Positions 56 through 48,594 of a stretch of 48,594 nucleotides of DNA are shown piece by piece. Position 1 is the first letter of the stretch, and every line of letters starts with the position of its first letter. Origin of the DNA: Acidimicrobiia bacterium (GTDB lineage: Bacteria > Actinomycetota > Acidimicrobiia > Spongiisociales > UBA11373). Under the pieces are notes generated by a model. The model was not told the DNA's origin and did no database searches. It saw only the letters and a program-made list of their open reading frames with translations. The position numbers and the translations under genes were made by a program. Where the stretch lies: positions 1 to 48,594 of the forward strand of contig JBBDMM010000004.1 of NCBI GenBank assembly GCA_040878325.1, read 5' to 3'.

Positions 56-105
56 CGTATTGCGTATTGCGAATTGCGAATTGCGGGCCGAGCGAAGCGA
101 GGCCC
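56..105. repeat. Heptamer array (AATACGC class) plus hairpin behind tldE
   Basis: Four 7-bp units (CGTATTG twice, CGAATTG twice) fill 56-83. They run into an imperfect inverted repeat, GGGCC...GGCCC, at 85-105, whose core reads GAGCGAAGCGA. The minus-strand tldE stop codon (108-110) is two bases away, so in the mRNA the hairpin follows the stop directly and may act in termination or 3'-end protection. The same hairpin-plus-array arrangement recurs at 38050-38091, and the same core at 17101-17120. Confidence 0.75.
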
Positions 106-11180: not shown

Positions 11181-11224
11181 GCGGGGCCTCGCCTGCGATA
11201 CGCAATACGCGATACGCAATTCGA
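11181..11224. repeat. Heptamer array, AATACGC class (left arm)
   Basis: Units GATACGC, AATACGC, GATACGC and AATTCGA occupy 11197-11224, preceded by a GC-rich stretch (GGGGCCTCGCC) like the hairpin core seen beside other arrays of this class. It lies just behind the stop codon at 11172-11174. An inverted copy follows at 11305-11332. Confidence 0.75.
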
Positions 11225-11304: not shown

Positions 11305-11332
11305 CGTATTGCGTATCGCGAATTGCGAATCG
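11305..11332. repeat. Heptamer array, AATACGC class (right, inverted arm)
   Basis: Units CGTATTG, CGTATCG, CGAATTG and CGAATCG. These are the reverse complement of the 11197-11224 class, so the two arrays form inverted arms about 80 bp apart between convergent genes. The array ends 4 bp from the stop codon of the MBL gene. Confidence 0.75.
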
Positions 11333-13794: not shown

Positions 13795-13871
13795 GTCTCC
13801 AATCTCCAGTCGCCAGTTTCCAGCAGGCGGGCCTTTCGCCATCCGCCATCCGCCATCCGCCATCCGCAAGA
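13795..13871. repeat. Two adjoining heptamer arrays (CCAGTCT and CCATCCG classes)
   Basis: 13795-13822 holds GTCTCCA, ATCTCCA, GTCGCCA and GTTTCCA. 13839-13866 holds four perfect CCATCCG units ending at the recurrent junction CAAGA (13867-13871). They lie in the leader of the minus-strand channel gene. Confidence 0.85.
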
Positions 13872-14130
13872 GCACTCAAGCGCTCGCGGTTTGCTCTCCG
13901 GCCGCTGCCAGGGCCGTTCGCCCCTGGTAGGGACGGGGCGAAAGCGACATTGTCGGGCTGAGAGGATGTTCGGCGGGAGCGCGGGTCCGACCCGACACAG
14001 CGCCCCCTCCTGTGAGTGGTGGATCCCCTCCCGCCGCATCCTCAACAACCAGCTGCCAGCCACGGCTCCAGCACCAGCCAGCAGCCCCAACTCCAACCCG
14101 CGGGCATCCGCATCCACTCGGCTATCCGGG
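13872..14130. other. Non-coding spacer with one hairpin
   Basis: The divergent spacer between the channel gene (13756) and the ATP-grasp-like gene (14202) is about 445 bp. Besides arrays at both ends it contains an 8-bp perfect inverted repeat, TTCGCCCC (13917-13924) with GGGGCGAA (13935-13942). I see no credible gene in it; open frames here read as repeat translations. Confidence 0.5.
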
Positions 14131-14151
14131 TTTCGCCTTTCGCCTTTCGCC
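14131..14151. repeat. Short heptamer array, TTTCGCC
   Basis: Three consecutive TTTCGCC units, about 40 bp before the -10 box of the next gene. Confidence 0.6.
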
Positions 14152-15590: not shown

Positions 15591-15681
15591 CCAGTCGCCA
15601 GTCTCCGGTCCCCAGCAGGAAACGCGGCCGAGGCCCGGTTCCCTGGTCTTACTGGAGACTGGCGACTGGCGACTGGTGACT
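15591..15681. repeat. Inverted pair of heptamer arrays between convergent genes
   Basis: Left arm 15591-15611 (CCAGTCG, CCAGTCT, CCGGTCC). Right arm 15654-15681 (GGAGACT, GGCGACT twice, GGTGACT). A central GGAAAC...GGTTCC repeat lies between them. The transcript can fold into a long hairpin serving both convergent genes. The right arm lies inside the tnaA coding sequence and encodes its last ten residues. Confidence 0.85.
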
Positions 15682-17100: not shown

Positions 17101-17141
17101 GGGCCTCGCTTCGCTCGGCCGCAATACGCAATACGCAATAC
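17101..17141. repeat. Hairpin core plus heptamer array, GCAATAC
   Basis: The core GGCCTCGCTTCGCTCGGCC (17102-17120) is followed by three perfect GCAATAC units (17121-17141). It is the reverse complement of the arrangement at 56-105. It lies upstream of tnaA in the divergent spacer. Confidence 0.78.
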
Positions 17142-17179
17142 GCCGAGTTATCGCACTCGAGAGGACCAGGTCGATTCTT

Positions 17180-17807: not shown

Positions 17808-17808
17808 C

Positions 17809-17850
17809 AAGAGTCAAGAGTCAAGAGTCAAGAGTCTTGATTCTTGATTC
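17809..17850. terminator. Heptamer-built hairpin between convergent genes
   Basis: Four AAGAGTC units (17809-17836) are followed directly by two TTGATTC units (17837-17850). With G-U pairs the RNA forms a continuous 15-bp stem around a 3-nt loop. It sits 2 bp after the LOG stop and 4 bp from the stop of the opposing lipoprotein gene, so it probably terminates both. There is no U-tract, so it is not a standard intrinsic terminator. Confidence 0.75.
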
Positions 17851-17853
17851 TCC

Positions 17854-23330: not shown

Positions 23331-23369
23331 CATCCGCCTTCCGCCTTCCGCCTTCCGCCTTCCGCAAGA
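23331..23369. repeat. Heptamer array, CTTCCGC class
   Basis: One CATCCGC unit (23331-23337) and four perfect CTTCCGC units (23338-23365) end at the junction CAAGA (23365-23369). It lies in the divergent 372-bp spacer between the sigma factor and YyaL genes. Confidence 0.85.
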
Positions 23370-29723: not shown

Positions 29724-30431
29724 GTGCCCCGTCGAACCTTGTTCGCCATCTTCATCGGATCGCTCGTCGGGGCGCTGCTCGGCGTGGGGGTGCTCGCACT
29801 CGCCGCTTCGCGAGTTCTCGATGGCGGCCTGGGAGCGGTCGTCGATGGCTCCGGCGGGGCTACTCCGGTGTTCCAGGTCACTCAGGGGGCGATGTACCTG
29901 CTGGTGGCCGTGGCCGGGGCGGTCGGTGGAACGGTTCTCGGGCTGATCGGCTACGCCGTAGGGCATGAGGCCGCCCCTGACGAGCCCCGGTTCAGCCCCC
30001 TCCCCTTGGCGTTGATCGGCGCCGGAGTAGGCGCCACGATCGGATTCGCCGCCACCCGGGCGGCGGTGGGTGCAGGTGGTTCCATCGCGTTCGGGATCGT
30101 CAGCTTGTCTCCCTTCCGGGCGGCCCTGGTCGCGCTGATCGCGGGAGGCATCACCGGCGGGATCGTCGGCGGGACGGTCGAACGAATCTCACGCACCGAG
30201 GCTCTCGGCATCGGCGGCGAGGCCTGGCCCCGTAGCCCCGCAGCCTTCATGAAGGACGCAGTGACCGCGATGGGCCTCCCGTCCCTGGGGATCGCGCTCG
30301 GCGCGGGCATCATCTACGGGCTGAGCAGGGTCCTCCTCGAATCGGAAGCCGAAGTGGCCCTGATCGTCTTCGGCGGTGTCGCCGCCCTGATTCTCCTCGG
30401 CGCCGTCATCGCCACCAGACCAAGCAAGTAG
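29724..30431 (+). CDS. Multi-TM Gly/Ala-rich membrane protein
   Basis: 235 aa, GTG start. About six hydrophobic segments, near 6-28, 53-75, 88-108, 120-150, 182-202 and 208-230, several with GxxxG packing patterns. No conserved polar motif or known family is visible. It starts 8 bp after the small membrane protein gene and is probably cotranscribed. Its TAG stop ends at 30431, the first base of a heptamer array. Confidence 0.75.
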   Translation: MPRRTLFAIFIGSLVGALLGVGVLALAASRVLDGGLGAVVDGSGGATPVFQVTQGAMYLLVAVAGAVGGTVLGLIGYAVGHEAAPDEPRFSPLPLALIGAGVGATIGFAATRAAVGAGGSIAFGIVSLSPFRAALVALIAGGITGGIVGGTVERISRTEALGIGGEAWPRSPAAFMKDAVTAMGLPSLGIALGAGIIYGLSRVLLESEAEVALIVFGGVAALILLGAVIATRPSK

Positions 30432-30558
30432 TCCCCAGTCCCCAGTCCCCAGTCCCCAGTCAGAATCCCCACACAGAATCCAGCGCGCCCACCGAGAGGG
30501 GTCGCGACGAGAACTACATCCGTTCTTGCTGGAGACTGGAGACTGGAGACTGGAGACT
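30431..30558. repeat. Inverted pair of heptamer arrays between convergent genes
   Basis: Left arm: four perfect GTCCCCA units (30431-30458). Right arm: four perfect GGAGACT units (30531-30558), flanked by TCTTG at 30524-30528 (CAAGA on the other strand). The arms are imperfectly complementary and separated by 72 bp. The left arm overlaps the stop codon of the + gene; the right ends 9 bp from the stop of the - gene. Confidence 0.85.
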
Positions 30559-36659: not shown

Positions 36660-37988
36660 GTGATCGAACGAGACGAGGTCTTCCGCATCCGCACCCGGCG
36701 CACGCCGGGGACGCTCGCCAAAGTGCTGGCGGCCATCGGGGAGCAGGGCGCCCACATCGGCGAGATCGAAACGCTGTCGATCACCCGCGACCACAACGTG
36801 CGTGACGTCACCGTGATCGCCCCCGGCGACGAGGCGGTCGATCGGATTCGTGTCGCTATCGAGGCGTTACCGGACGTCGAACTCGTCGAGCACAGCATCG
36901 ACCGCGTCTTTGCGGCGCACGAGGGCGGCAAGATCGCGGTGGTCCCCACCGTGGAGGTCGAGACGCTGCTCGACATGCGCCAGGTGTACACCCCCGGGGT
37001 CGCCCGGGTGGCGCAGGCGATCCACGCCGACCCCGGTCTTGCCGATCGCTACACCTGGCGGCGCAACACGGTGGCAGTCATCAGCGACGGCTCCCGGGTA
37101 CTGGGCCTGGGCAACCTCGGTCCCCTCGCCGCCCTCCCGGTGATGGAAGGCAAGGCGCTCTTCTACTCCCGCCTGGTGGACCTGAACGCGGTGCCGATCG
37201 TGCTCGGGACCACCGACCCCGACGAGATCATCGAGACGGTGGTGCGGATCTCGCCGGGGTTCGGTGGCATCCATCTCGAGGACATCGCCAGCCCCGGTGT
37301 GTATCACATCGAACAGCAACTGATCGAGCGGCTCGATATCCCGGTGCTGCACGACGACCAACACGGCACCGCGGTGGTGGTGTTGGCCGCGGTCCTTTCC
37401 GCAGTGCGCCTGCTCGACCGGCCGATCGAATCGATGACCTTCGGCCAGGTGGGCCTGGGGGCGGCAGGCTCGGCAATCGCCGTGCTGGCGGCGTCCCTTC
37501 CATTCAGCCTCGTCTCGGCATTCGACCCGAACCAGGCAGCAGTGGAGCGGTTCGATCAGGCGGGAGGCGAATGCCGGGCGCCGACCAGGGCCACCGCGGA
37601 CCCGAGTGGGTTCGACAAGGTGGTGGCCGGGTCCGACGTCCTGGTGCTCACGTCAGGGGTGCCAGGGCTCCTCGAAGCGAGCAAGGTTCGAAAGGGACAG
37701 GTAGTCGTGGCACTCACCAACCCGGAGCCAGAGATCGCCATCGACGAGGCGCTTGCCGGCGGGGCCGCGATCGCCGCCGACGGATCGATCGTCAACAACG
37801 TGCTCGCCTATCCCGGCCTGTTCCGCGGGGCCCTCGACGCCGGTGCTTCCTCCATCACGACCGCCATGAAGCGGGCAGCCGCCGAGGCCCTCTCATCGCT
37901 CGCCACCGGAGCCGACCTCCTCCCCGATGCCCTCGATAGAGCGGTTCATGCCGAGGTGGCAAAGAGAGTGGCTGAAGCAGCCGGATAG
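36660..37988 (+). CDS. NAD(P)-dependent malic enzyme with N-terminal ACT domain
   Basis: 442 aa. An ACT domain (about 6-80, RTPGTLAKVLAAIGEQGAHI) is fused to a malic enzyme core: VYTPGVARV at 109-117, GKALFYSRLVDLNAVPI, the metal region LHDDQHGTAVV, and the Rossmann GQVGLGAAGSAIA. The reaction is oxidative decarboxylation of malate to pyruvate. The ACT domain suggests allosteric control by an amino acid or related metabolite; the effector is unknown. The GTG at 36660 starts right at the ACT domain; the upstream frame to 36576 translates the heptamer array. Confidence 0.93.
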   Translation: MIERDEVFRIRTRRTPGTLAKVLAAIGEQGAHIGEIETLSITRDHNVRDVTVIAPGDEAVDRIRVAIEALPDVELVEHSIDRVFAAHEGGKIAVVPTVEVETLLDMRQVYTPGVARVAQAIHADPGLADRYTWRRNTVAVISDGSRVLGLGNLGPLAALPVMEGKALFYSRLVDLNAVPIVLGTTDPDEIIETVVRISPGFGGIHLEDIASPGVYHIEQQLIERLDIPVLHDDQHGTAVVVLAAVLSAVRLLDRPIESMTFGQVGLGAAGSAIAVLAASLPFSLVSAFDPNQAAVERFDQAGGECRAPTRATADPSGFDKVVAGSDVLVLTSGVPGLLEASKVRKGQVVVALTNPEPEIAIDEALAGGAAIAADGSIVNNVLAYPGLFRGALDAGASSITTAMKRAAAEALSSLATGADLLPDALDRAVHAEVAKRVAEAAG

Positions 37989-37990
37989 GC

Positions 37991-38091
37991 CTTCCGCCTT
38001 CCGCCCTCAGCAAGACCGGGTCAGGGTCTCAACCCCTGTTCAACCGTTTGCGCATCGCGCATCGCGAATTGCGGACCGCCGAAGGCGGTCC
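37991..38091. repeat. Two heptamer arrays and a hairpin between convergent genes
   Basis: 37991-38004 holds two CTTCCGC units, then CAAGA at 38011-38015. 38050-38077 holds GCGCATC twice, GCGAATT and GCGGACC. A perfect 8-bp stem, GGACCGCCGAAGGCGGTCC (38073-38091), ends 2 bp from the stop codon of the hydroxyacid dehydrogenase gene, the same placement as the hairpin beside tldE. Confidence 0.82.
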
Positions 38092-38093
38092 CT

Positions 38094-39017
38094 TCAGACC
38101 ACCCTATTCACCCACTCCGCTTCTCCGCGATACGCGGCCAGGTTACGTTCGAAGAGGGCGGCGAGGCGCTCGCCGTAACGTGGCGACAGCCCGGCAAGGT
38201 GGGGGGAGACGAGCACGCCTGGCAGGTCCCAGAAGGGGGAATCCTGCGGGAGTGGCTCCTGGTCGAAAACGTCGAGCGCCACCCCCTTGAGCCGCCCGTC
38301 GCCCATCGCGGTGATCAGCGCGCCGGTGTCGATCACCGATCCCCGGCCGACGTTGACCAGCCAACCGCCGCTGAGCGCCTCCAGTTCCGCCGCACCGACG
38401 AGATGCTCGGTCTCGGCCGTTCCGGGGAGCGTGATGACGACGGCGTCGGCGGCCCGGAACACTTCCAGGGTCCCTTCGGGACCGAACACCTTCTCGGCCA
38501 CTCCCTCGTAGGACGACGGATTCCGTTTGGTACCGATCACTCGCATTCCAAAGGCCCGGGCGCGCCGGGCCACTCCCTCGCCGATGACTCCGAGGCCGAG
38601 CACCCCGAGGGTCTTGCCGCTGAGTTCGGTCACCTCGGACCACACCCAGGTCCGGGTTGCCTGGTTGGTCGCCGCAGTGGCGATTCCCCGCGTCATCGCC
38701 AACAACAGTCCGAGGGCATGCTCTGAAACCTGCGTCTCATGGATCCCCCGCGCCGAGGTGAGCACCACGCCTTTGGAGCGCAGCAGATCGAGCGGGAACT
38801 GATCGGTGCCGGCCGACACCGACTGCACCCAGCGCAGCGACGGGATCAGCCAGTCGTCTGACCAGCGAAATGCGACCACCACCTCGGCTTCGCCGAGGGA
38901 GGCCGGCATCTGGTCGGCCGACCGCACGATCAGGGGATTGGTGCCGGGCACGGCTGCGACGGCTTCGGCAACGCCGGAGCCTCCCAGGGGTCCCACGACC
39001 AATCGAATCGGTTCCAT
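38094..39017 (-). CDS. D-isomer-specific 2-hydroxyacid dehydrogenase
   Basis: 307 aa. The Rossmann motif is GLGVIG (141-146). The catalytic triad is R225 (VNVGRG), E254 (FDQEPLP) and H273 (SPHLAG), with QVSEHALGLLLAM before the NAD domain. Substrate may be glyoxylate, hydroxypyruvate or another 2-oxoacid. The ATG at 39015-39017 has TAGTTT 7 bases upstream. It follows the HTH gene on the same strand by 14 bp, so it may also be read from that promoter. Confidence 0.9.
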   Translation of the reverse strand: MEPIRLVVGPLGGSGVAEAVAAVPGTNPLIVRSADQMPASLGEAEVVVAFRWSDDWLIPSLRWVQSVSAGTDQFPLDLLRSKGVVLTSARGIHETQVSEHALGLLLAMTRGIATAATNQATRTWVWSEVTELSGKTLGVLGLGVIGEGVARRARAFGMRVIGTKRNPSSYEGVAEKVFGPEGTLEVFRAADAVVITLPGTAETEHLVGAAELEALSGGWLVNVGRGSVIDTGALITAMGDGRLKGVALDVFDQEPLPQDSPFWDLPGVLVSPHLAGLSPRYGERLAALFERNLAAYRGEAEWVNRVV

Positions 39018-40767: not shown

Positions 40768-40857
40768 GGAGGCGTTCGAGTGCCTGGTGGGCTCCCCGGT
40801 CTTCAAAACCGGAGGCGGGCCTCATCGGCCCGCAGGGTTCGATTCCTTGCGCCTCCG
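40768..40857 (+). tRNA. selC: tRNA-Sec (anticodon UCA)
   Basis: 90 nt without CCA. Acceptor strands GGAGGCG and CGCCTCC; anticodon arm CCGGT-CTTCAAA-ACCGG with TCA; long variable arm GCGGGCC/GGCCCGC; T-loop TTCGATT; discriminator G. The long variable arm, extended D-stem and UCA anticodon mark it as selenocysteine tRNA. I count 7 + 5 = 12 pairs in acceptor plus T stems, against 8 + 5 in E. coli selC; an 8 + 4 reading is also possible. CCA is not encoded. It implies UGA recoding in this organism; selA, selB and selD are not in the window. Confidence 0.88.
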
Positions 40858-42701: not shown

Positions 42702-42716
42702 AGCAGCCTTCATGCC
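42688..42716 (+). terminator. 12-bp hairpin spanning the ABC gene stop codon
   Basis: GGCATGAAGGCT (42688-42699) pairs perfectly with AGCCTTCATGCC (42705-42716) around GAAGC. The stop codon (42699-42701) lies at the top of the stem, so the last codons are part of it. No U-tract; a C-rich heptamer array follows at once. Confidence 0.65.
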
Positions 42717-42761
42717 TTCCGCCTCCCGCCTCCCGCCTCCCGCCTCCCGCCTCCCGCAAGA
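42715..42761. repeat. Heptamer array, CCTCCCG class
   Basis: One CCTTCCG (42715-42721) and five perfect CCTCCCG units (42722-42756), then the junction CAAGA (42757-42761). Confidence 0.85.
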
Positions 42762-42796: not shown

Positions 42797-42817
42797 GCGC
42801 ATCGCGCATCGCGGTCG
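42797..42817. repeat. Short heptamer array, GCGCATC
   Basis: GCGCATC twice and GCGGTCG, the same units as at 38050-38063. It lies 38 bp before the hflX start. Confidence 0.6.
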
Positions 42818-44881: not shown

Positions 44882-44928
44882 GGGCGGATCCCTCCAGATT
44901 GGTGCCTGAAAGGTACCGCAGGAGGCCT

Positions 44929-44981
44929 CGCTTCGCTCGGCCTCGGCTCCGGCTCCTGCTCCTGCTCCGGCTCCAGCAAGA
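44929..44981. repeat. Hairpin core plus hexamer array
   Basis: The core GCCTCGCTTCGCTCGGCC (44934-44941 and flanks) is the same as at 17102-17120. Five hexamers follow (GGCTCC twice, TGCTCC twice, GGCTCC; 44945-44974), then the junction CAAGA (44977-44981). Here the period is 6, not 7. Confidence 0.75.
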
Positions 44982-48556: not shown

Positions 48557-48563
48557 CAGGGAG

Positions 48564-48591
48564 CCTTCCGCCTTCCGCCTTCCGCCTTCCG
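48564..48591. repeat. Heptamer array, CCTTCCG class, at window edge
   Basis: Four perfect CCTTCCG units, then CGC and the window end. It lies upstream of the GNAT gene; what follows is not visible. Confidence 0.8.
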
Positions 48592-48594
48592 CGC

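Follow-up and report, generated by a model that had tools for sequence, protein, structure and literature searches.

Hairpin-headed heptamer arrays at gene junctions of an Acidimicrobiia genome: a probable BIME-like mosaic repeat

Introduction

REP and BIME elements are short, multi-copy extragenic palindromes, variable in the stem, mosaic in build and often placed directly downstream of coding regions (PMC3733652, PMC2817692). REPs are marked by a tag, either GTAG or CGTC, the GTAG types being linked to RAYT (PMC3733652). Other intergenic repeats consist of tandem heptamers. The heptanucleotide repeats of Calothrix (cited in PMC4692102) and the GGGNATC / GGGGAYT repeats of Xanthomonas and Nostoc (PMC4692102) are intergenic 7-nt tandem arrays that occur genome-wide and vary among relatives. 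The TAACTGA repeats of Beggiatoaceae and cyanobacteria are intergenic heptamer direct repeats near gene ends with a patchy phylogeny; they have a single unit and lie mostly upstream of starts (PMC4679880). That long simple repeats of bacteria so often measure seven bases was pointed out as early as 2007, but no explanation has been put to the test (PMC4692102). An origin of heptamers by slippage is a published idea (Mrazek 2007, as cited in PMC4679880 and PMC4692102).

The repeat described here was noticed in a stretch of 48,594 nt from an Acidimicrobiia bacterium, the whole of which we call the window. It shares with REP and BIME elements the many short extragenic palindromes, the variable stem, the mosaic build and the frequent place directly behind coding regions. 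Unlike them, it has no GTAG tag other than where the stop codon supplies one, RAYT is missing from its own genome and from the relatives searched, its hairpin is joined to heptamer arrays, and these arrays are not depleted between divergent genes. It shares with the Calothrix and Xanthomonas/Nostoc repeats the intergenic, genome-wide 7-nt arrays that vary among relatives; it differs in its units, which are mostly not G-quadruplex-like, in having many unit families per genome and hairpin heads, and in being common between divergent genes. From the TAACTGA repeats, which it resembles in position and patchiness, it differs in its many units, its hairpin heads and its location near stops or divergent promoters. 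A comparison with the two published sets, TAACTGA and GGGNATC, found no shared unit, and our searches of the open-access literature turned up no account of a heptamer array headed by a hairpin.

Results

An initial annotation had pointed to a hairpin placed two bases past each of two minus-strand stop codons and followed by heptamers. Both sites are present as described. Gene calls, made in this analysis from codon usage, together with Pfam assign the two stops to a TldD/PmbA-family gene (the tldE of the annotation; 108-110) and a D-2-hydroxyacid dehydrogenase gene (38094-38096). On the minus strand, TGA 38096-38094 is followed by AG and GGACCGCCTTCGGCGGTCC, and TAG 110-108 by AG and GGGCC-TCGCTTCGCTC-GGCCC. 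The relevant features of the window are as follows.

38073..38091, minus strand: hairpin head GGACCGCCTTCGGCGGTCC, 8-bp stem, 2 nt past the TGA at 38094-38096
38050..38072, minus strand: array GC + AATTCGC GATGCGC GATGCGC, abutting the hairpin at 38073..38091
38010..38015, minus strand: TCTTGC junction ahead of a second array (TCTTGC is enriched past arrays)
37989..38005, plus strand: second heptamer array GCCTTCCGCCTTCCGCC, starting directly past the malic-enzyme stop
85..105, minus strand: hairpin head GGGCC-TCGCTTCGCTC-GGCCC, 2 nt past the TAG at 108-110 of the TldD/PmbA-family gene
56..84, minus strand: array GC + (AATTCGC)2 AATACGC AATACG, abutting the hairpin at 85..105
17102..17120, plus strand: hairpin core GGCCTCGCTTCGCTCGGCC, between divergent genes and not behind a stop
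17121..17143, plus strand: array GC + (AATACGC)3, directly past the 17102 hairpin
44924..44942, plus strand: hairpin core GGCCTCGCTTCGCTCGGCC, then a period-6 run (CGGCTC) and no heptamer array
11197..11223, plus strand: RATNCGC array (GATACGCAATACGCGATACGCAATTCG), no clear hairpin
11305..11331, minus strand: RATNCGC array facing the one at 11197..11223, no hairpin
42797..42810, minus strand: GATGCGC array, no clear hairpin, opposite a (GCCTCCC)n array at 42719-42757

The hairpin and array at 38050-38096 fold with an MFE of -24.9 kcal/mol (z -2.9); the TCGCTTCGCTC-type RNA fold is not clearly stronger than its shuffles. No T tract lies past the hairpin at 38073..38091, where the next sequence is GCAATTCGC, and a terminator scan of 37900-38200 returned a sole site at 37970-37982, unrelated to the hairpin. 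The annotation also had the core accompanying arrays at 17102 and about 44934, which holds for the former, with (AATACGC)3, and fails for the latter, where the core at 44924-44942 leads into the CGGCTC run. Both of these copies adjoin the start of a minus-strand gene. By itself, AATTCGC occurs 9 times in the window, little more than the 4.4 expected by chance; the excess over chance lies in the tandem arrangement and in the junction with the hairpin. Further heptamer arrays with unrelated units lie at 13837-13867, 15651-15681, 17808-17851, 23333-23365, 30430-30461, 30529-30558, 42714-42757 and 48563-48592. An Rfam scan of the window matched no known RNA family at the repeats; its sole match was a selenocysteine tRNA (RF01852) at 40768-40856 on the plus strand, just upstream of an ABC transporter gene, and no selenocysteine machinery gene was identified adjoining it.

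Statistics were drawn from a 448-kb sample (the window, C6:1-200000 and C10:1-200000) and from whole-genome pattern searches. The core GGCCTCGCTTCGCTCGGCC has 21 genomic copies, nearly all leading directly into a heptamer array. A looser pattern, TCGCNNCGCTC-N(2-8)-GCRATNSG, has 54 copies in the genome vs 1 in the reversed control; the repeat is thus a 20-40 nt multi-copy extragenic palindrome, a single loop type of which recurs 54 times across 2.2 Mb and almost always between genes. In the sample, GCRATNSG follows 15 of 46 post-stop hairpins and occurs in the comparable window of 5 of 167 hairpin-free gaps (odds ratio 15.7, p=9e-8, a somewhat optimistic value since the motif test was designed after the list from a weaker exact-array test had been seen). 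Hairpin and array thus co-occur beyond chance, contrary to the result that would have undone the annotation's reading. The count of 54 vs 1 supports this test independently. In that weaker test, hairpins from a generic scan were set against exact arrays and showed little association (odds ratio 1.9, p=0.11), because exact-run detection overlooks short arrays. Hairpins flank RATNCGC arrays solely at the 5' side (8 of 29 ends vs 0 of 28 at the 3' side) and head RATTGGC heptamers as well, and some sites are two hairpin-array modules in chain. Many arrays in the genome have no hairpin.

Across the composite copies the loop hardly varies, unlike the stem. The loop is either the conserved TCGCNNCGCTC or a short TTCG-type, and the 3' side joins GC(RATNSGC)n. 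In 41 distinct sequences, picked regardless of the 5' arm, 79.5% of stem cells are paired vs 59.7% after shuffling, double-change stem cells number 33 vs 11.5, and the covariation score is 0.472 vs 0.158, a value reached by 0 of 500 shuffles. The signal is lost once the stem partner is slid, and in an independent permutation test each of stem pairs 1-4 lies above permutation. Such covariation can also stem from template switching at imperfect palindromes. The array often ends in a tail of type ACAGAACGCG or CAAGA. TCTTGC occurs at most 90 nt past 11 of the 54 copies, against a background of 1.6%, and usually opens a second, facing array, for example GGAAGGC. A conserved hairpin in the spacer between two facing arrays was considered and rejected as a general feature (mean z only -0.4). 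A longer tandem repeat, in which a GGGCGGCGCAGCC version alternates with hairpin units of the CTATCGCGGGAGGCTGGCGTCAGCCAGCCGAC type, was seen between convergent genes (L125, G000:C6:127075-127382).

Relative to genes, 24 of the 54 copies face a stop, 26 face a start and 4 lie inside called genes; gaps between divergent genes hold 11. In 21 of the 24 stop-facing copies the distance from the stop to the hairpin start is between -1 and +7 nt, so the fixed position proposed in the initial annotation holds for this group and does not extend to the start-facing copies. Many of the latter look from their sequence to begin near an apparent -10 box (TANNNT) that would serve a divergent, leaderless gene. 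TAG is the stop at 14 of 21 stop-facing composites vs 40 of 133 stops before array-free gaps (p=0.002), and GTAG lies within 8 nt of 11 of 37 stop-facing copies, its TAG being the stop, vs 1 of 32 start-facing copies. By eye, no CGTC tag is apparent in the composite flanks inspected. Among gaps of at least 40 nt, arrays occur in 16 of 70 divergent, 11 of 40 convergent and 23 of 133 tandem gaps, a comparison that covers heptamer arrays at large, the loop-type composite being too rare in the sample; the arrays show no preference for convergent or unidirectional over divergent gaps. In array-bearing gaps, hairpins number 15 after stops vs 3.5 expected from shuffling, and 7 before starts vs 4.8.

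Restriction to period 7 is a property of the whole genome and is more striking than the AATTCGC array alone; intergenic tandem repeats, almost all with a seven-base unit, number in the hundreds. In the 448-kb sample, exact tandem runs of at least 21 bases have period 7 in 39 cases, and every other period, multiples of 7 aside, in 0 or 1. Arrays in the sample number about 80; nearly all lie between genes, and their unit sequences run to dozens (AATTCGC, GATGCGC, ACTGGAG, GGAAGGC, GGCGATT, AAGAATC and others). As dispersed, tandem, intergenic 7-nt units, they qualify as heptanucleotide simple repeats (STRR-like). One AATTCGC array (L120, G000:C6:31643-31738) runs into a long G run, an N stretch and a C run; the assembly has probably gone wrong at this repeat.

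That hairpin and array form one unit, as the annotation held, is borne out in the same genus (54 vs 1 in this genome; 16 vs 0 in G001) and in part in G005 of another genus (6 vs 0). Counts elsewhere are near background; G007, G009, G003 and G030 have arrays of the same unit without the hairpin, and the many hairpin-free arrays of the genome itself also fall outside the claim. In G030, from another family, much longer pure AATTCGC arrays of at least 8 units adjoin an N run at about 13831-14150 on the reverse strand of C10 (L168), with no hairpins.

Array density per Mb is 192 in this genome, 215 in G007, 127 in G005 and 4 in G004, so that two relatives in one family differ about 45-fold. The median convergent gap is 61 nt here and -4 (an overlap) in G004, the one array-poor genome in the comparison (p=7.5e-6). 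Within this genome, convergent gaps measure 112 nt with arrays and 18 nt without, the latter still somewhat longer than those of G004. We conclude that gene junctions lengthened as arrays were gained. G007 lacks the composite of C6:29379-29609, and both flanks are recognisable there (an empty site). At the 38050-38096 site, G005, G009 and G001 carry other heptamers. For four composites, the orthologous site in G001 also holds one, with changed units and a stem that is changed yet paired or partly paired; the G001 loci were found by the same pattern, so that their loop identity is partly due to selection and their stem pairing is not. These same-site copies reflect vertical inheritance and leave current mobility unproven.

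The annotation had suggested a RAYT as the mover. RAYT (Y1_Tnp, PF01797) had no match in the genome or in any relative searched, while five control genomes gave matches. Of the 14 genomes searched for a reverse transcriptase, G007 and G016 alone have one, and this genome has none. At the sensitivity of these searches, both are excluded as drivers. MutS is absent from the genome and from all eight other family members searched; its lack here, together with a Septum_form domain protein, suggests an actinobacterium. Loss of MutS as a cause was rejected, since the gene is missing in array-rich relatives and in array-poor G004 alike; its absence may at most be permissive. Mismatch repair copes poorly with longer loops (PMC4060949).

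Discussion

We consider it probable that the composite is a lineage-specific, non-coding, BIME-like mosaic intergenic repeat, in which a hairpin module is combined with slippage-homogenised heptamers. It works like a REP/BIME element yet fits no described family that we found. The observations that carry this reading are the hairpin-array junction, the stem covariation, the family-specific gain of intergenic DNA, the inheritance at the same sites of composites whose stems and units have changed, and one empty site. Against it, no mobilising enzyme was found in the searches for RAYT and reverse transcriptase, no target-site duplication has been shown, and arrays and hairpins occur apart in other genera.

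On this reading, a hairpin module with a conserved loop and a changing but paired stem leads, on the 3' side, into GC(RATNSGC)n. The module may have spread by copying or ectopic conversion. Arrays would have been inserted into gene junctions of near-zero length and lengthened them, which would account for a hairpin start at the stop codon or near an apparent -10 box of a divergent promoter. Slippage is the likely source of the arrays and, with conversion, would alter and homogenise their units, keeping the 7-nt period and not the sequence. Post-stop copies may have a secondary role as mRNA 3'-end hairpins. A terminator role may apply to these copies. It cannot explain everything, since gaps between divergent genes hold arrays about as often and a T tract is missing.

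The last point bears on a reading to which we give a real though minor chance, namely that the hairpin is a selected terminator or mRNA 3'-end stabiliser behind stops and the heptamers are incidental filler. The tight start of 21 of 24 stop-facing copies, the excess of hairpins after stops (15 vs 3.5) and hardly before starts (7 vs 4.8), and the covarying stems are what one would expect of such an RNA element. It is weakened by the 26 of 54 copies that face a start, by the similar array frequency in divergent (16/70) and convergent (11/40) gaps and by the missing T tract at 38050-38096, and a terminator leaves the joined array unexplained. We regard it as unlikely that slippage alone accounts for the repeats, with polymerase stalling at hairpins and heptamers arising locally beside them with no spreading element. 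The exclusive period of 7 fits such an origin, slippage of heptamers has been proposed before (Mrazek 2007), and with MutS absent from this genome and the eight other family members, slipped loops would evade canonical repair. However, GCRATTSGC recurs by hairpins of differing stems at dozens of loci, so the unit does not derive from local sequence; many arrays are hairpin-free, and array-poor G004 lacks MutS as well.

It is also quite improbable, in our judgement, that a lineage-specific process adds DNA in exact seven-base steps at gene junctions, with the hairpin as its start and a machinery that sets unit length and leaves the sequence free. Least credible is that a protein binds the heptamers as a row of sites on DNA or RNA, with the hairpin as part of the recognition: the fixed junction register, the strong intergenic bias and the conserved loop would suit it, but the dozens of unrelated units have only their period in common, and orthologous sites carry different ones.

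For the mosaic repeat that we favour, the hairpin-array junction provides a defined substrate, and the array-linked growth of intergenic space can be measured. Together with the 45-fold contrast in array density, these make the origin of heptamer arrays testable, in close strains and through genes that follow the phenotype.
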